This document shows, piece after piece, positions 22,923 through 54,737 of a DNA stretch of 64,000 nt (its first letter is position 1; the number at the start of each line of letters is the position of its first letter). The stretch comes from Domibacillus sp. DTU_2020_1001157_1_SI_ALB_TIR_016 (GTDB lineage Bacteria > Bacillota > Bacilli > Bacillales > Domibacillaceae). A program made the position numbers and the translations under genes. The notes under the pieces are model-generated. The model saw only the letters and a list, made by a program, of their open reading frames with translations. It did no database searches and had not been told where the DNA came from. The stretch spans positions 2,418,001-2,482,000 of the forward strand of contig NZ_CP135439.1 in the NCBI RefSeq assembly GCF_032341995.1, read 5' to 3'.

Positions 22923-23924
22923 TTGAAAAAACGTGATAATTATTTTGACAACGTTCGGTTTTTTCTTATTTTTTTGGTGGTATTTGGTCATCTTCTTCGT
23001 CCATATATTCACACCAGTCCGTTCCTTTATGCTCTTTATATGGTAATCTATTCTTTTCATATGCCAGCTTTTATTTTGATTTCCGGCTTTTTCGCCAAAA
23101 GCATAAAGCGGCCGGGCTATATTAAAAAAGCGGCCGAAAAGCTGCTGATTCCATTTCTTATTTTTCAATGTGTGTATTCGGTTTTTTATTTTTGGATCGA
23201 CCATGAAGAAGCTCTTTCCGTAAGATTGCTGATTCCTGAATGGTCGCTTTGGTTTTTAATGAGCCTATTCCTTTGGCATGTATTGCTTTTAGGCACCGTT
23301 AAATGGCTGAAAAACCCGTTTATTGCGCTTATCCTTTCGGTAGCAGCCGGTGTTGGAATCGGCTTGGTCAATGAATCACTGACTGTTTTAAGCATCGGCC
23401 GGACATTTGTGTTTTTCCCGTTCTTTTTAGCGGGCTATTACGCGAAAAAAGAATGGTTCCAGCCGTTGTTCCGCATGCGGTCACGCATTCCGCTGTTTCT
23501 TTTTGCAGCCGGGCTGTTTGCATACTGCTATACGCATACAACGATGCAGATTGAGTGGCTGTTTGGCTCCCAATCGTACGCGGCGCTCGGCGCTGACGGA
23601 ACAGATGGTTTGCTTTTACGATTGTTTGTTTATGCTGTTAATATCGTCATGATTGCTTTTTTTCTTTCCGTCGTGCCGCATAAAGTCTTTTTCTTTACCG
23701 CATGGGGACGCAATACATTATACGTGTACTTGCTGCATGGTTTTTTTGTTCAGTCATCACGGCGTGTAGAAACACTGGAACTGCCGCCGTCTCTGCTTGT
23801 TTTGTTTGGAACGGCTGCTGTTTTAACATTTGCCCTGGCGTCTCCATGGACAGCCGCCCTGTTCCGCCCATTTTTGGAGCTGAAACGCCCTAGCTTTTTC
23901 ATTAAAAAGGAGAATAAATCGTGA
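22923..23924 (+). CDS. Membrane acyltransferase, Acyltransferase_3 family
   Basis: About 333 residues with roughly ten membrane helices, beginning KKRDNYFDNVRFFLIFLVVF, the usual N-terminus of acyltransferase-3 proteins, with the catalytic-type histidine in VVFGHLLRPY. Such proteins O-acylate cell-surface sugars or other envelope molecules; substrate unknown. TTG 22923 is chosen because AGGTGAT lies just upstream and the family start aligns; GTG 22914 is an alternative. The stop overlaps the GTG of the next gene by three bases, indicating coupling. Confidence 0.82.
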   Translation: MKKRDNYFDNVRFFLIFLVVFGHLLRPYIHTSPFLYALYMVIYSFHMPAFILISGFFAKSIKRPGYIKKAAEKLLIPFLIFQCVYSVFYFWIDHEEALSVRLLIPEWSLWFLMSLFLWHVLLLGTVKWLKNPFIALILSVAAGVGIGLVNESLTVLSIGRTFVFFPFFLAGYYAKKEWFQPLFRMRSRIPLFLFAAGLFAYCYTHTTMQIEWLFGSQSYAALGADGTDGLLLRLFVYAVNIVMIAFFLSVVPHKVFFFTAWGRNTLYVYLLHGFFVQSSRRVETLELPPSLLVLFGTAAVLTFALASPWTAALFRPFLELKRPSFFIKKENKS

Positions 23925-48220: not shown

Positions 48221-49039
48221 TTATTGCGCTGCTTTTTTTAAAGTTTCCATATCTGGCGCTTCATCAAACCATTTTTCGTAGATTTCAGCGTATTTACCGT
48301 TTTCGTAAAGCGTATTTAATGCTTTGTCAAAATCGTCTTTATACTCGCTTCCTTTCGGGAAAGCAATACCGTAGTATTCAGCTGCAAACTGATCATCTGT
48401 GACCGTTTTAACACCGGCATTCGGATTTGATTTTTCATATTCAAGTGCTACTGCAATATCTGTTACTACAGCTTCAACATCTCCACTTTGAAGAGCTTGG
48501 AACATCAGAGCGGCTGTTTCATATTTTGAAATAGCATTGTTGTTTACACCCACGATGCTTTCAGCTGCAAATTGTCCAGTTGTTCCATTTTGAACGCCAA
48601 TTTTCTTTCCTTTTAAATCTTCCGCTGCTTTAATGTCTGTTCCTTCTTTGTAGACGATCATCGTTACAGATTCAAAATATGGAACAGAGAAATCATATGT
48701 TTCTTTACGTTCATCGGTGATAGTGATGCCTGACATGCCGATATCAAGCTGTCCGCTTTGAAGACCGGCAAGCATGGAATCCCATCCTGTATTTTGAATG
48801 TTGACGTCATAGCCAGCTTCTTCTGCTGCGGCATTTAAAAGATCTACGTCAAATCCGGATACTTCACCTTTATCCATAAATTCAAACGGAGCGAATGTAG
48901 CTTCCGTTCCAACATTAAGTACCTTTTTCTCTTCAGAAGGACTGCTGCCCTTTTCTTCTTCTCCGCCGCCGCACGCTGCTAACAGCAAAGCAGTGCTGGC
49001 CATGATAGCGGCTGCTGCTTTTTTAAATGAATAGGTCAT
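48221..49039 (-). CDS. Amino acid ABC transporter substrate-binding lipoprotein
   Basis: 272 residues. Lipoprotein signal peptide with lipobox LLAAC, Cys at about residue 23, followed by a GGGEEEKGSS linker and a family-3 solute-binding domain (LNVGTEATFAPFEFMDKG, GFDVDLLNAAAEE, GMSGITITDER). Anchored on the outer face of the membrane. ATG 49039 follows AAAGGGG. First gene of the three-gene importer operon. Confidence 0.93.
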   Translation of the reverse strand: MTYSFKKAAAAIMASTALLLAACGGGEEEKGSSPSEEKKVLNVGTEATFAPFEFMDKGEVSGFDVDLLNAAAEEAGYDVNIQNTGWDSMLAGLQSGQLDIGMSGITITDERKETYDFSVPYFESVTMIVYKEGTDIKAAEDLKGKKIGVQNGTTGQFAAESIVGVNNNAISKYETAALMFQALQSGDVEAVVTDIAVALEYEKSNPNAGVKTVTDDQFAAEYYGIAFPKGSEYKDDFDKALNTLYENGKYAEIYEKWFDEAPDMETLKKAAQ

Positions 49040-49289
49040 GTAAAAATCCCCTTTGATTTTTTTATATAGTACGATAATACTCTTTCCGCTTTAAAAACTC
49101 AATCATTTTTTATGCATTTGTTTATTTTTATACATGAATATTCATCGAAAATGCGCATTTTTTGCATTTTATTACAGAATACTGAATAGATTTTGCATAA
49201 AGAACGAATTTTCTGAATAGTATTTAGTAAAGCGGAATGCTCTTTTATTCTGTACAAAAATACGCAGTTCATGCTTCCTTAACTTCTTA

Positions 49290-49318
49290 TTGACAATGAT
49301 TATCATTCCCTTTAAGAT
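49290..49318 (+). promoter_or_regulatory. Promoter with Fur box
   Basis: Perfect -35 TTGACA (49290-49295), 17-base spacer, -10 TAAGAT (49313-49318). GACAATGATTATCATTCCC (49292-49310) matches 15 of 19 positions of the Fur consensus GATAATGATAATCATTATC and covers the -35 and spacer. Predicted repression by Fe2+-Fur of the downstream 159-residue protein gene. The rest of the 313-base gap after the ABC operon is AT-rich with nothing else recognised. Confidence 0.8.
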
Positions 49319-49352
49319 GAAAGAAGAACGACGATGGAAAGAGGGAGACTGC

Positions 49353-49832
49353 ATGAATGGAATGCTTCATGGACTCAAAGACATCCATATGGTGATCGCC
49401 AACAGCCGAAAGCTGGGTGGTGCTGCGGAAGCCGAGTCGATTACACTTTCATCCGGTGAAACATATACCAATCCGGTTTTTACAAATGTTGATTTGTCCC
49501 AGGGAAAATACATTTCGTTCAGCTTTGTGGCAGATAGCGGCGAAAACGTTACAGCACACGTTGATCAAATCGGCGTCATGCGGGGACTTCGCCATAAATT
49601 GATCTGCCAGCTTCAAAATGGAGCCGTTCGAGAACTAATGACAGAAGAAACCCTTCGCTACTTGCGTAAGCTGTGTGAAGTAAATGAAGGATTTGTCACT
49701 CACTCCTTTAAAAAAGAAGCATTAAAGCTTGTACGGGACGTCAGTATAGACGAACTGGAAAAGCGGCATGTTCATTTGCCATTTGCGATTGAATCGAATG
49801 TAGTTGCCATCAATACGAAAAAATTTGCTTAA
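49353..49832 (+). CDS. Protein of unknown function, predicted Fur-regulated
   Basis: 159 residues, no signal peptide, membrane helix or cysteine-rich cluster; the single cysteines in LICQL and KLCEV are far apart. The N-terminal half looks beta-rich (SITLSSGETYTNPVFTNVD), the C-terminal half helical and charged. I do not recognise a family. ATG 49353 follows GAGGGAG and lies about 28 bases beyond the predicted transcription start; upstream codons in the frame lie in the promoter. Convergent with the encapsulin operon, so an iron-related role is suggested by position and Fur box only. Confidence 0.78.
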   Translation: MNGMLHGLKDIHMVIANSRKLGGAAEAESITLSSGETYTNPVFTNVDLSQGKYISFSFVADSGENVTAHVDQIGVMRGLRHKLICQLQNGAVRELMTEETLRYLRKLCEVNEGFVTHSFKKEALKLVRDVSIDELEKRHVHLPFAIESNVVAINTKKFA

Positions 49833-49841
49833 TATATAACC

Positions 49842-49865
49842 AGCCTTGTTAAAAGGCTTTTTTTT
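49842..49865 (+). terminator. Terminator of the Fur-regulated gene
   Basis: AGCCTT / AAGGCT stem with a short loop and an eight-T run, ten bases after the stop codon. Confidence 0.88.
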
Positions 49866-49871
49866 ATGTGA

Positions 49872-49903
49872 AAAACAGGGTGCCAAATCGGCTTCCCTGT
49901 TTT
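49872..49903 (-). terminator. Terminator of the encapsulin operon
   Basis: AAACAGGG / CCCTGTTT stem flanked by A and T runs, just beyond the ferredoxin stop. Confidence 0.82.
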
Positions 49904-49905
49904 TT

Positions 49906-50274
49906 TTACGCTTCTCTCATGACCGCCTGGCAGGCCAGCCTGCGCAAAGAAGCGCCGAGTTTTTTTTGTTCGGCTTCATTTCTAAGTGAGAGAAAGGTTT
50001 CTCCTGAAAAAATATCCACAGCACATCGGCCGCATGTTCCTTTGCGGCATTTGTAATCTATGCTGCACCCTTGTTCAAGCGCCGCATCGAGCAGTGTAAT
50101 ACCCGGCTTGACTGATACAGTGCAGGAGGCTTCTTTTTGCTTCCATTGAACAGCTGCTGCCAGCTTATCGAGAGATGGCTGTTTTTCTTCCGCCAGGCGG
50201 GCCGGCGGCTCCAGCGGTGCACGCCGTGTTTCCCTGCCTGGAATGAGCGAACCGACCGTCCACTCCCTATTCAT
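49906..50274 (-). CDS. [2Fe-2S] ferredoxin with N-terminal encapsulin targeting motif
   Basis: 122 residues. The C-terminal domain (about 45-122) has plant-type ligands spaced C-x4-C-x2-C (CRKGTCGRC) with a fourth Cys about 30 residues later in RLACQAV. The N-terminus REWTVGSLIPG carries the same TVGSLI motif that ends the IMEF cargo protein, followed by a Pro/Glu-rich linker, so it is probably packaged inside the shell and supplies electrons to reduce stored Fe(III). ATG 50274 (or 50277) overlaps the encapsulin stop; about 23 upstream residues in the frame are discarded. Last gene of IMEF-encapsulin-ferredoxin. Confidence 0.88.
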   Translation of the reverse strand: MNREWTVGSLIPGRETRRAPLEPPARLAEEKQPSLDKLAAAVQWKQKEASCTVSVKPGITLLDAALEQGCSIDYKCRKGTCGRCAVDIFSGETFLSLRNEAEQKKLGASLRRLACQAVMREA

Positions 50275-51121
50275 CATCTCTTGGGTCGGCGAATGTACAA
50301 ATTGCAGATGGACGTTTGATCCGGAGCACTGCCGTTTCGTATACACGGAATGGGTGGTTCATTCCTTCTTCGCCGAGATAAGCGGTTTCGAAATCTTCCG
50401 ATACTGCCAAATCAAGATTATTACGCCCTGTATTCACAAGCACACCTGTTTTTCCTTTTAAAACAGGCGATTGAAAAACGCCGCCTGTTACAAGCTCACG
50501 CACATGCTCAATTTCGAGCACGTTTGTATCGCGATGTACCCGGTGCAGCAGTGCATACAGCTCTGGCGACAGAACAAGCGCATACGGACCGTTATGGTTC
50601 ATCTCCATCAGCTTTCCACGTGCTTCCACTACGTCCTGGAATGCGGTTCCGGATTCGTACCAATTGCTGATTAAATGTGTCTGGCGTCCTTTGACATTCA
50701 TTAAACCAGGTATGTCAAACTGGGCCGCGCCATGAAAAATCATTTCGTCTTCGAGCAATGCCACATCACGTGCTGCATTGGCTGCTGCGGAAAAGTCGAT
50801 CGGAATATCAAGTGCTTTTGCCTGCTCAATGTCACGCCAGTACAAAACAAAATCCTTATATAACATAGGAATGGTATAATTGACGCGCTTGGATGATTCC
50901 ACTTCCGTGTCAAACGATCCCTGCAAATCCATATGAGCTGCGCTTTTTTCAGAAAAAATGTCTGTGTGAATGCTCTGTACGCCGCGTCCAAGCGGGCCGT
51001 ATAACTCAATGAACCGCCGGCCTGTTAATTGCCCTCTGGCCGCTTCAATCATAATTTGCTCCAGCTGATCAAAGTCAGCCTCTGATAGTGGTGCGTCTGG
51101 ATATAAGTGTAATTTGCTCAT
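50267..51121 (-). CDS. Encapsulin shell protein, IMEF type
   Basis: 284 residues, HK97-fold nanocompartment shell. Segments GRRFIELYGPLGRGVQS, DTEVESSKRVNYTIPMLYKDF, ARDVALLEDEMIFHG and EDFETAYLGEEGMNHPFRVYE closely match the Quasibacillus thermotolerans encapsulin, which forms a large T=4 iron-storing cage. ATG 51121 has AGGAGG eight bases upstream. It begins 12 bases after the IMEF stop and overlaps the ferredoxin start, so the three genes are one operon. Confidence 0.95.
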   Translation of the reverse strand: MSKLHLYPDAPLSEADFDQLEQIMIEAARGQLTGRRFIELYGPLGRGVQSIHTDIFSEKSAAHMDLQGSFDTEVESSKRVNYTIPMLYKDFVLYWRDIEQAKALDIPIDFSAAANAARDVALLEDEMIFHGAAQFDIPGLMNVKGRQTHLISNWYESGTAFQDVVEARGKLMEMNHNGPYALVLSPELYALLHRVHRDTNVLEIEHVRELVTGGVFQSPVLKGKTGVLVNTGRNNLDLAVSEDFETAYLGEEGMNHPFRVYETAVLRIKRPSAICTFADPRDDE

Positions 51122-51133
51122 CAACTCTTCCTC

Positions 51134-51730
51134 CTACTTTGAAATAAGGGACCCTACTGTAAATGTCCGCTTTGGTCCTGCCGGTTTTGCCGTAAGCGCC
51201 GCCGATGTACGCACATGGGAATGATGGTCGCTGTGTGCATGATGGTTTAAATGATCGCCATGCTCGTCATGATGCGCATGCGGGTCTGTGTATCCTGTGT
51301 CAAAGCGTTTATTAATGCCGGCAAGCTTTTCTTTTACAAACTGATAACTTTTATAATTGGATTCGCGCATTTGGGACAGCTTGGCCTGGCGCTCCGCATC
51401 TTTAAATTGAAAAAGAGCAAGATCAAGATGCTCCACAAAGTTATGCAGGCCAAACTTTTCAAGGTTCAATTCCTGCAGCAGCCGGTTGAACGTATTGTTG
51501 GACGGTGTGAACTCGCCTCCCCGCCCGGCCTGAAAGGTTTCAATCAGCGGGATCAACTCGGCAAGCCTGGAAAGCCGCTGTTCCTCTTCTTCAAAAATAT
51601 GGTGATAATACAGCCGCTCGTGGTCATCTTTTGCATTGTTAATAACCGGATCGAGTATTGCCATAAAACTTTCAATATCTTTTTTAGTGCCGGTAAAGAT
51701 ATCATAAAATTCACTTAATTCTTCCTTCAC
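51134..51730 (-). CDS. IMEF ferritin-like cargo protein of encapsulin
   Basis: 198 residues. The helical ferritin-like domain (about 1-145) has acidic/His candidates for a di-iron ferroxidase site in YYHHIFEEEEQRLSRL and NFVEHLDLALFQF. A histidine-rich linker follows (about 152-173, 11 His in 22 residues). The C-terminus RTFTVGSLISK is the shell-docking peptide of IMEF cargo. It oxidises Fe2+ for mineralisation inside the shell. GTG 51730 is chosen because AGGAGG lies eight bases upstream; the GTG three codons earlier overlaps that site. First gene of the operon. Confidence 0.93.
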   Translation of the reverse strand: MKEELSEFYDIFTGTKKDIESFMAILDPVINNAKDDHERLYYHHIFEEEEQRLSRLAELIPLIETFQAGRGGEFTPSNNTFNRLLQELNLEKFGLHNFVEHLDLALFQFKDAERQAKLSQMRESNYKSYQFVKEKLAGINKRFDTGYTDPHAHHDEHGDHLNHHAHSDHHSHVRTSAALTAKPAGPKRTFTVGSLISK

Positions 51731-51759
51731 GAGACGCACCTCCTAGTGTACCTTCTTCC

Positions 51760-51788
51760 ATTATAATCGCTGCTTTTTACAGGGGCAA
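51760..51788 (-). promoter_or_regulatory. Promoter of the encapsulin operon
   Basis: Minus-strand -35 TTGCCC (51783-51788), 17-base spacer, -10 TATAAT (51760-51765), about 30 bases upstream of the IMEF start. No Fur-like box is visible in or around it, unlike the convergent gene. Confidence 0.7.
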
Positions 51789-51798
51789 AGATTACATG

Positions 51799-51826
51799 AA
51801 AAAAAGCGCCGATTTTGGCGCTTTTT
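51799..51826 (-). terminator. Terminator of pncB
   Basis: AAAAGCGCC / GGCGCTTTTT stem with a six-base loop and T run on the minus strand, between pncB and the encapsulin promoter. Confidence 0.88.
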
Positions 51827-51833
51827 CGGACCG

Positions 51834-53291
51834 TTACAGCTGCTCCTGCGGCTGCGCTTTAACGGCTTCAATATTTTTCATTTTATTATCCCAGCAGGCC
51901 TGGCTTAAATCGACCGGATATTCTTCCGGATTAAGCGCCCGCTTGTATTCGCTCCATAATAGCGACAGGTTATCCGCCGTCCGGCTCCGGATCGTGTGGA
52001 TATCGGGCAGGTCATATACACGCGTGCCGTTGATGAAAATCGGTTCATGCAGTTCGCGCGCTTCAAAATTGGTCACAAATTTGCTGACAAAGGTGTGTAC
52101 AGGATGAAACATTTTCAGCCGCTCGGCATGCTGTGGATCTTCATGTTCCATCGCAATATAATCCCCTTCCGCTTTGCCATTCAGCTTATTGATAATGCGG
52201 TACACGCGTTTTAATCCAGGTGTTGTCACTTTTTCTGGATTGGCTGACAGCTTGATCGTATCCGTCATCCTTCCGTTGTCATCTTCAATCGACACCAATT
52301 TATAAACGGCGCCAAGAGCAGCTTGGTCATACGCGGTAATCACCTTTGTACCGATACCCCATACATCAATTTTGGCACCTTCTGCTTTTAAGTTCATAAT
52401 TGTGTATTCATCCAGATCATTGGACGCCACAATATGCGCTTTTGGAAACCCTGATTCATCAAGCATTTTACGTGCTTCCTTGGAAAGATAAGCCATATCG
52501 CCGCTGTCGAGGCGGACACCAACGAAGCGAATCTGGTCTCCCAGCTCTTTTGCAGCCCGTATCGCTGCCGGCATACCAGACTTGAGCGTGTCATAAGTAT
52601 CTACGAGAAACACACAGTCACGATGCCGTTCTGCATATTTGCGAAAAGCTGTGTATTCATCTTTGTACGTTTGCACAAGTGCATGGGCGTGCGTACCGGA
52701 AACAGGAATGCCAAACAGCTTCCCTGCCCGGACATTGCTTGTTGCGTCAAAACCGCCGATATAAGCAGCCCGCGTTCCCCATACTGCTGCATCCATCTCG
52801 TGCGCCCGGCGCGAGCCAAATTCCATTGCCGTTTCGTCGCCAAGCACCTGTTTAATCCGAGATGCTTTCGTGGCGATCAATGTCTGATAGTTCACAATAT
52901 TAAGCAGGGCGGTTTCGACAATTTGAGCTTCCGCCAGCGGCGCTTCAATACGCAGAATCGGTTCGTTTGCAAAGACAAGCTCACCTTCCTGCATACTTTT
53001 TAACGTGCCTGTAAACCTCATGTTTTTTAAATAAGCTAAAAAATCTTCCTTGTAGCCGATATCGCGCAAATAGTCGATATCGCTCTCTGAAAAATGAAAA
53101 TTCTCCAAGTAATCGATAATTTTTTCTAATCCGGCAAAAACACCGTATCCGTTTCCGAATGGAAGCTTGCGAAAATATAATTCAAATACGGCTTTTTTTG
53201 TATGGATGCCATCATGCCAGTACGTTTCGGCCATATTAATCTGATAAAGGTCGGTATGCAAGGCAAGGCTGTCGTCTTCATATCGTGACAT
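51834..53291 (-). CDS. pncB: Nicotinate phosphoribosyltransferase
   Basis: 485 residues; makes nicotinate mononucleotide from nicotinate and PRPP in NAD salvage. Motifs LHTDLYQINMAETY near the start, the phosphorylated-histidine region FGSRRAHEMDAAVW, VGVRLDSGDMAYLS and VWGIGTKVITAYDQ. ATG 53291 follows GGGAG; 34 upstream residues in the frame are non-homologous. Independent unit ending in a terminator, not part of the encapsulin transcript. Confidence 0.95.
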   Translation of the reverse strand: MSRYEDDSLALHTDLYQINMAETYWHDGIHTKKAVFELYFRKLPFGNGYGVFAGLEKIIDYLENFHFSESDIDYLRDIGYKEDFLAYLKNMRFTGTLKSMQEGELVFANEPILRIEAPLAEAQIVETALLNIVNYQTLIATKASRIKQVLGDETAMEFGSRRAHEMDAAVWGTRAAYIGGFDATSNVRAGKLFGIPVSGTHAHALVQTYKDEYTAFRKYAERHRDCVFLVDTYDTLKSGMPAAIRAAKELGDQIRFVGVRLDSGDMAYLSKEARKMLDESGFPKAHIVASNDLDEYTIMNLKAEGAKIDVWGIGTKVITAYDQAALGAVYKLVSIEDDNGRMTDTIKLSANPEKVTTPGLKRVYRIINKLNGKAEGDYIAMEHEDPQHAERLKMFHPVHTFVSKFVTNFEARELHEPIFINGTRVYDLPDIHTIRSRTADNLSLLWSEYKRALNPEEYPVDLSQACWDNKMKNIEAVKAQPQEQL

Positions 53292-53408
53292 TATTTTTAC
53301 TCCCTTTGCTTTTCCATCGTGTTTCATTCCTATTATCCTACACCTTTTTGAGCGTTCCGGCAACTTGTCCCGGACTATTTCTTGGACAACCACGAAAAAA
53401 AGCGCCCA

Positions 53409-54737
53409 TTATGTGCGCTTTTTCGCTTCAATATATAAAATATGATGATCTTCCATTTCGATAATCGTAAATACCCAGTCCTCTTCTTCGAGCATGTCAT
53501 GAAGGGATGTATCAATTTTTTCTGTTAAAAACCAGCCGCCGAGCGTATCGACATCTTCATCATTTAACTCGGTGCCAAGCAGGGCATTTACTTCACTTAT
53601 TAATACTTTTGCGCTGAATAGATAATGGCTGTCATTCACTTTTCGTACTTCGGGAATTTCATCTGTATCATATTCGTCACGAATTTCCCCGACAATTTCT
53701 TCTAAAATGTCTTCTACCGTTACAAGACCTGATGTACCGCCATATTCATCAATTAAGATTGCCATATGTGTCTGCTCTTTCTGCATTTTCACAAGCAGGT
53801 CATGAATCAGCATGTTTTCAAACACGCGAATCACGGGTTTTACAAATTGACGTAGCGGCTGTACTTTAGGAAGCGGCTTGCCTTTTACGGCGACGCTTAA
53901 AATTTCTTTGAAGTTCACCATGCCGATTACATTGTCTTTGTCTCCGTCAATAACGGGATACCGCGTATATTTTTCTTCTCTGATAATAGCCAGAACATCA
54001 TCGAGTGTATCATCAATCGATAAGCTGACCATTTCTGTGCGCGGCACCATAATTTCTTTTGCAAGGCGCTCATCAAATTCAAAAATATTATTTACATACT
54101 TCAGTTCGGTTTGATTGATTTCGCCGCTTTTGTAACTTTCAGAAAGCAGCATCCGCCATTCTTCCTCTGTATGAACCTCATCATGTTCAGATGCCATTTT
54201 CAGCCCGAACAATCCGGTCACAAACCGTGCAGAGCCGTTGAGCGTCCATATAAATGGATACATAATACGGTAAAACCATATAAGCGGGACGGCAAGCGCC
54301 AGCGTGACTTCCTCCGCTTTTTGGATAGCGACTGTTTTAGGCGCCAGCTCGCCCACTACAACATGAAGAAACGTAACAATGGTAAAAGCAAGGATAAATG
54401 ACAAAACTGCAGCGAGAGAAGAAGCAAGCTCAAAACGCTCAAACAGCGGATGAAGAAGCTTTTCCACCGTCGGTTCGCCAATCCAGCCAAGCCCGAGTGC
54501 CGTAATGGTAATGCCGAGCTGGCAGGCAGATAAATACTCATCTAAACGGGTTGTAACGCGTTTCGCTGCCATAGCACCCGGTTTTCCTTCCGCTACAAGC
54601 TGATCGACGCGTGAAGCTCTCATTTTTACAATAGCAAATTCCGCAGCTACGAAAAAAGCAGTGAGGGCGATTAATAAAGCAATGCCCAATAAATTCACAA
54701 TCTCCAATGACAGGCTCCGATAACTCGGAGCATCCAC
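53409..54737 (-). CDS. CNNM/HlyC-CorC family membrane protein (DUF21 + CBS + CorC_HlyC)
   Basis: 442 residues: DUF21 with about four helices (about 15-205), paired CBS domains (about 220-345) and a C-terminal CorC/HlyC domain (about 355-440). Family members transport or sense divalent cations, notably Mg2+. ATG 54737 sits only three bases after AGGAGG; TTG 54707 (LEIVNLL...) has GGAG at seven bases and matches the usual family start, so the true start is uncertain. A small hairpin GCTCCGA / TCGGAGC covers the start. Single gene. Confidence 0.87.

Follow-up and report, generated by a model that had tools for sequence, protein, structure and literature searches.

The window analyzed here, a 64,000-nucleotide stretch of a Domibacillus genome (5.1 Mb, two contigs), carries three tightly spaced minus-strand genes in the order IMEF, encapsulin shell, and ferredoxin. 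They constitute one operon, which spans from a promoter-like site at 51788 to the ferredoxin stop codon at 49906. An earlier note on this DNA had described IMEF, shell, and [2Fe-2S] ferredoxin as a single tight operon, and family profiles, strands, and gene overlaps confirmed this. The first gene (51134..51739, minus strand) encodes the ferritin-like ferroxidase cargo IMEF, with a His-rich linker and a C-terminal FTVGSLISK docking peptide. The first GTG of this frame (51739) falls within the ribosome-binding sequence AGGAGGTG and was disfavored as the start for that reason; the probable start is GTG 51730, in agreement with the N-terminus of the solved structure 6N63. The second gene (50267..51124, minus strand; ATG start at 51121, stop at 50267-50269) encodes a Family 1 encapsulin shell. 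The third (49906..50277, minus strand) encodes a [2Fe-2S] Fer2 ferredoxin composed of an N-terminal TVGSLI tag, a linker of ∼30 residues that is predicted to be disordered, and the Fer2 domain; from either of its ATG codons (50277, 50274), it overlaps the shell stop codon. The operon is preceded by a promoter-like TTGCCC-17-TATAAT (51760..51788, minus strand), a consensus match only, with no Fur-box-like site nearby.

Convergent with the operon is a gene for a 159-residue protein, here called gene N (49353..49832, plus strand). Its stop codon lies 73 bases from that of the ferredoxin, and a terminator-like hairpin (49842..49858, listed on both strands) lies between the two 3' ends. Upstream of gene N is a promoter-like TTGACA-17-TAAGAT (49290..49318, plus strand), the -35 element of which is overlapped by the Fur-box-like sequence TGACAATGATTATCA (49291-49305, 13/14 positions), a candidate operator. 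The three promoter-like matches in the region do not exceed the 3.8 found in shuffled sequence. An Rfam scan of 48900-54000 gave no match at the gathering score.

The cargo and shell were assigned by family and structure searches. IMEF matched TIGR04536 with 253 bits (cut-off, 100) and PF24309 with 180 bits (cut-off, 27), and its closest solved structure was 6N63 (E 8e-72); the shell matched NF041155 with 301 bits (cut-off, 100), and its closest solved structure was 6NJ8, the T=4 shell of Quasibacillus (Bacillus) thermotolerans (E 1.6e-160). Both structures were described for the Q. thermotolerans system, in which IMEF is packaged via its docking motif and oxidizes and mineralizes iron (PMC6668986). 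In that work, the IMEF tag was required for loading, its loss resulted in empty shells, and the peptide TVGSLIQ was modeled into the interior groove of shell 6NJ8. The window's IMEF ends in KRTFTVGSLISK (RTFTVGSLISK), which matches the published cargo tag and bears out the identification of its TVGSLI as the known docking peptide. An IMEF cargo, a Family 1 shell encoded in the same operon, and a C-terminal docking peptide on IMEF, the marks of an IMEF encapsulin system, were all found, and judged by its sequence the locus encodes an IMEF encapsulin system for iron storage in complete form. The genome also has one ferritin-family match, Dps-like by eye. The likeness to the Q. thermotolerans system extends over cargo family, shell family, tag, gene order, and the presence of a ferredoxin.

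Next, the ferredoxin tag and its conservation were examined. The ferredoxin begins with MMNREWTVGSLIPG (tag region, NREWTVGSLIPG), and TVGSLI occupies residues 7 to 12 counted from the first Met or 6 to 11 from the second. The translations thus confirmed that the motif is common to the IMEF C-terminus, where it follows RTF, and the ferredoxin N-terminus, where it follows REW. A profile built from 20 IMEF proteins retrieved 91 relatives, and the best 80 of these 91 were kept as loci. A ferredoxin related to that of the window was present in 72 of the 80 loci and was not found in eight (L047, L054, L082, L083, L098, L103, L104, and L106). The earlier note had proposed looking for the motif at other ferredoxin N-termini, and its absence from orthologues would have counted against the idea; all 72 ferredoxins carried it. 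Four variants were seen: TVGSL in 58, TIGSL in 10, SVGSL in three, and TVGTL in one. In 71 ferredoxins, the tag starts at position 2 to 8 from the nearest start codon, while L095 has no standard start codon before the tag; the distance from the tag to the first cluster cysteine is 53 to 82 residues. The residue before the motif was also compared between ferredoxin and IMEF of the same locus, a comparison confounded by descent: L accompanies L in 28/28 loci, and where IMEF has F, the ferredoxin has F, W, or Y in 35 of 44 loci and L in nine.

The occurrence of the tag in these two proteins goes beyond chance. Two DNA patterns encoding TVGS plus a following L or F have 15 matches in the genome of the window, and only those of IMEF and the ferredoxin are terminal in a credible gene; further cargo with an exact TVGSL tag was rejected on this exact-pattern search. 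Among the other frames of the 80 loci (which together contain 6085 frames of 50 codons or more; the TIGSL form lay outside the search expression), one had a comparable motif at the places tested. Automatic surveys may miss such tags. Database protein P0015 (98 residues) has no tag because its start was set too far downstream, and the corresponding Domibacillus frame, L036, contains MNRKWTVGSLIPG; misplaced starts of this kind would hide tags. In more distant IMEF loci, which were chosen as outliers or examples rather than at random and some of which are cut by contig ends, a ferredoxin was present in 3/10 and 2/18 stretches. Since it is absent nearby in eight of the 80 loci and in most distant ones, the ferredoxin cannot be required everywhere. 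In an earlier survey of 71 operons, 70% included a ferredoxin (PMC6668986).

The tagged-ferredoxin idea is right in outline but is not new. Ferredoxins of IMEF operons with an N-terminal TVGSL motif were reported to copurify with shells (PMC8346489); both the tag and copurification are described in PMC11202242, which discusses electron transfer through the shell, and the N-terminal tag is also mentioned in PMC8229669. The proposal in the earlier note that IMEF and ferredoxin are both packaged fared accordingly: the shared, conserved tag and the published copurification (PMC8346489, PMC11202242) speak for it, but enclosure of the ferredoxin itself is stated to be unclear in PMC11202242.

One feature of the His-rich IMEF linker (51134-51300), which precedes the tag, varied among loci. 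When the last 60 IMEF residues were compared (L032 to L111), the near-identical L032 had 12 His; counts were mostly 5 to 9 where the ferredoxin lies directly behind the shell gene and mostly 0 to 4 in other loci. Metal binding by this linker is possible.

The family of the ferredoxin was then determined. The window's protein matched PF00111 (E 3.7e-13; 49.7 bits, cut-off 21) over residues 51 to 120 and has the ligand pattern C-x4-C-x2-C...C. The scan covered this protein and 71 of the 72 ferredoxins from the loci (L095, which has no start codon, was omitted), and PF00111 was matched by 72/72. None of the 72 matched PF04324 (Bfd) at E 0.01 among all nine matched families, and homology to Bfd was rejected. 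The Q. thermotolerans paper names its ferredoxin a Bfd homologue (PMC6668986), whereas by our scan it is a Fer2 protein; the published description is thus unsupported by family membership, although the role may still be analogous. The window's genome has no stand-alone Bfd, its eight Bfd-domain matches all lying in frames of ∼800 residues. The structural model of the ferredoxin was of moderate quality (mean pLDDT, 69; ∼50 for residues 1 to 40). Its domain (residues ∼42 to 120) is predicted to be closest in fold to Fer2 ferredoxins, E. coli Fdx among them (best Foldseek E, 0.0015), and the best sequence or fold matches, E. coli Fdx (1I7H), plant-type ferredoxins, and Azotobacter FeSII, have the C-x4-C-x2-C motif in common with it. 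Compared with these known proteins, the window's ferredoxin adds a tagged, disordered N-terminal extension of ∼40 residues. The likeness to the Bfd/bacterioferritin pair lies in the proposed donation of electrons to a ferric core, and low-iron induction of Bfd (PMC8610991) parallels the Fur-box-like sites found at part of these ferredoxins (see below). Unlike that pair, the present system has a PF00111 rather than a PF04324 protein, docking by a linear tag, and mineral held in a shell rather than in a 24-mer.

A relative of gene N was found in 78 of the 80 IMEF loci (absent from L054 and L103, and only a 64-residue edge piece in L069). In 77 loci, its position is downstream, on the strand opposite to the operon; in L105 it is upstream on the same strand. 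The window's arrangement, IMEF-shell-ferredoxin with gene N convergent, was seen in 43/80 loci; in 20/80, gene N is convergent with IMEF-shell and the ferredoxin is divergent from gene N; in 6/80, the ferredoxin is upstream of gene N on the strand of gene N; and 11/80 had other arrangements. Two genome samples were also searched, which overlap in some genomes and contain related genomes that are not independent. In the order sample (397 genomes), IMEF was found in 35 genomes (31 above the family cut-off) and gene N in 34, all within the 35; in the exception, G391, IMEF is represented only by a fragment close to where a 13-kb contig ends. In the class sample (398 genomes), IMEF was found in 50 genomes (47 above the cut-off) and gene N in 51, including 50/50 IMEF genomes. 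In the additional genome, G414, a shell gene and an IMEF-like frame that ends in a tag (E 0.0045, own profile) accompany gene N, and apart from it neither sample contained a genome with gene N and no IMEF match. Gene N follows the IMEF system more faithfully than the ferredoxin.

Convergent genes need not have a common function, and given the relatedness of the genomes, gene N might be an ordinary iron-regulated neighbor outside the encapsulin system. We consider this improbable: the one N-bearing genome lacking a regular IMEF match has the divergent IMEF-like gene and shell beside gene N, and linkage is not needed for the two to be retained together, as gene N and IMEF occupy separate contigs in G524 and are ∼3 to 11 kb apart in several genomes of its family, all of which keep both. 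That gene N belongs to the encapsulin system is the reading followed below.

The same collection contained unusual cargo forms. In L216 (7425-8028, minus strand; G652) and L218 (4387-5025, plus strand; G467), IMEF is apparently split into two short frames upstream of the shell gene and gene N; the family match of each frame covers one half, and both frames have a tag-like end of their own (WTVGDL and WTVGTL; WSVGNL and FTVGNM). These are perhaps two-gene IMEFs with each half tagged. In L213 (G414), L214 (G465), and L215 (G541), very divergent IMEF-like frames of about one helical hairpin lie beside a shell gene and gene N and end in LSVGSLVIY, LTVGSLIQY, and LSVGSMISY, respectively; L215 additionally has a tagged ferredoxin. 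Judging from these frames, a half-size IMEF-like cargo may exist.

To characterize gene N, its product was modeled and compared with known families. The model (pLDDT, 89) predicts a helix, a small beta-barrel, and C-terminal helices, and Hfq/Sm-like proteins offer a comparison for the predicted barrel. The window's protein matched no Pfam family, had one NCBIfam match far under the cut-off (Pbp11; E 0.0065, 16 of 100 bits), and had one PHROG match at E 0.22. Searches with 57 relatives yielded scattered, chance-like weak matches (among the families listed, 25 of 37 in one scan and 25 of 30 in the other). Against PDB sequences at E values up to 10, 20 distinct matches were obtained, mostly designed TPR repeats (best whole-sequence E, 5e-7, with no stretch passing alone); the remaining few included aldehyde dehydrogenases at E 0.23. 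Foldseek found no PDB structure at E 0.001, and a viral fold library gave no match at E 0.001 or better. After these searches of Pfam, NCBIfam, PHROG, PDB, and viral folds, assignment to a known family was rejected. There were 202 database relatives, and among the 120 listed, those with names were hypothetical or uncharacterized except for one HKD family nuclease. The accessible parts of the literature on IMEF, the ferredoxin, the operon, Fur, and iron mobilization contained no mention of gene N and a Fur site in connection with an encapsulin, and gene N may appear in some figure or supplement. In the Q. thermotolerans locus (L044), the ferredoxin is tagged at its N-terminus and gene N has a 12/14 Fur-box-like site; neither gene N nor the site was found in the portion of PMC6668986 consulted.

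The distribution of Fur-box-like sites was analyzed by taking the best 15-base match to TGATAATNATTATCA, which we take to be the Fur box consensus, over 14 scored positions; the threshold of 12 was picked after the scores had been seen. Within 150 bp upstream of gene N, the threshold was reached in 73/78 regions (77 loci and the window, which scores 13). The background was 56/4000 for random 150-bp stretches (true sites left in), 14/3900 for mononucleotide shuffles, and 19/591 for other frames, some of which resemble iron-uptake genes. The loci are related by descent, and the counts therefore overstate independence. Extra loci were mixed, with scores of 8 to 9 before gene N (no site) in L143 to L145 and of 9 to 11 in several others. 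Over the whole window, two sites with at most two mismatches were found (0.35 expected; two were reached in 7/100 shuffles), and the second, weaker one lies at 22934-22948 (plus strand, two mismatches). Three Fur-family genes are encoded in the genome. These upstream matches suggest that iron starvation induces gene N.

Sites were not a general property of the storage genes. Within 200 bp upstream of IMEF, the threshold was reached in 3/77 loci, and a Fur box as a general feature of IMEF operons was rejected. For ferredoxins not directly behind the shell gene, a site was found in 17/27. All 17 were among the 20 loci in which ferredoxin and gene N are divergent, so that 17/20 shared regions carry a site and these counts are not independent of those for gene N. 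The ferredoxins apart from the shell gene and not divergent from gene N had none (0/7), and starvation control of the ferredoxin is thus not general. In the window's lineage, the IMEF operon has no Fur-box-like site, and hence neither does its ferredoxin.

How iron leaves encapsulins has been called an open question (PMC7762939, PMC11202242, PMC8610991). We propose, with a probability of roughly 60%, that the ferredoxin is tethered to the shell by its tag and donates electrons to the ferric mineral for the exit of Fe2+ and that gene N is a starvation-induced partner in the change from storage to release. The IMEF operon would be expressed without Fur, and the shells would fill with ferric mineral. 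The ferredoxin would dock by its N-terminal tag, most likely in the inner shell groove used by IMEF, and would hand electrons to the mineral so that Fe2+ leaves when iron is short. As iron falls, Fur would come off the promoter of gene N and, in the lineages with the divergent arrangement, off that of the ferredoxin. Gene N and ferredoxin would then mobilize iron or halt further storage, with gene N either targeting the shell or its cargo or curbing further expression of the operon. The steps inferred in this scheme are electron transfer, iron release, control by Fur, and whatever gene N does; iron release by the ferredoxin gains support from the putative sites at 17/27 separately transcribed ferredoxins.

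The loci of the window's type (43/80), in which the ferredoxin is cotranscribed with the storage genes and has no Fur-box-like site, would also fit a packaged ferredoxin that aids iron loading, for example by giving electrons to the di-iron center of IMEF or accepting them from it. Such a role is doubtful. IMEF within shells oxidizes iron using O2 with no ferredoxin present (PMC6668986), and where the ferredoxin is divergent from gene N, the two have a common putative operator that is expected to be active in starvation.

The Fur-box-like sites favor iron release in starvation and at the same time complicate simple packaging by coassembly. If the ferredoxin is produced chiefly in starvation, the shells that it encounters would often be closed already, and it would have to enter new shells or act outside. 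The ferredoxin might then not be luminal in its working state, the tag binding shell protein or assembly intermediates and the ferredoxin acting outside or transiently, with electrons passing through the shell. The 17/20 shared regions with a putative operator point to synthesis once shells exist, an enclosed ferredoxin would need a route for its rereduction, and in PMC11202242 the matter of encapsulation is left open and electron passage across the shell is considered. Against this, the motif is the one found on luminal cargo and docks in the interior groove of the solved shell (PMC6668986), and the position of the gene directly behind the shell gene in 43/80 loci fits coassembly. We regard an outside-acting ferredoxin as unlikely, though a stronger competitor than a role in loading, and retain the tethered, mineral-reducing ferredoxin as the working model.

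A broader reading, to which we give even odds, sees in gene N a core part of IMEF encapsulin systems that has been overlooked and that is more constant than the ferredoxin. The product of gene N would be repressed by Fur, would be made in iron starvation, and would turn the store from loading to release. Ferredoxin and gene N would then form a Fur-controlled release module, which would be distinct from a storage module consisting of shell and IMEF and would become visible where ferredoxin and gene N have one common divergent operator.

The operon itself was well observed and exemplifies a feature already in print, to which the present analysis adds a correction of the ferredoxin family, a count of tag conservation, and gene N with its operator-like site. 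The tagged ferredoxin is the published candidate for iron release from IMEF shells and is now placed in a family other than the one stated. With a Fur-box-like site at the ferredoxin in part of the lineages and a gene N that tracks the system, the question of iron release becomes directly testable.
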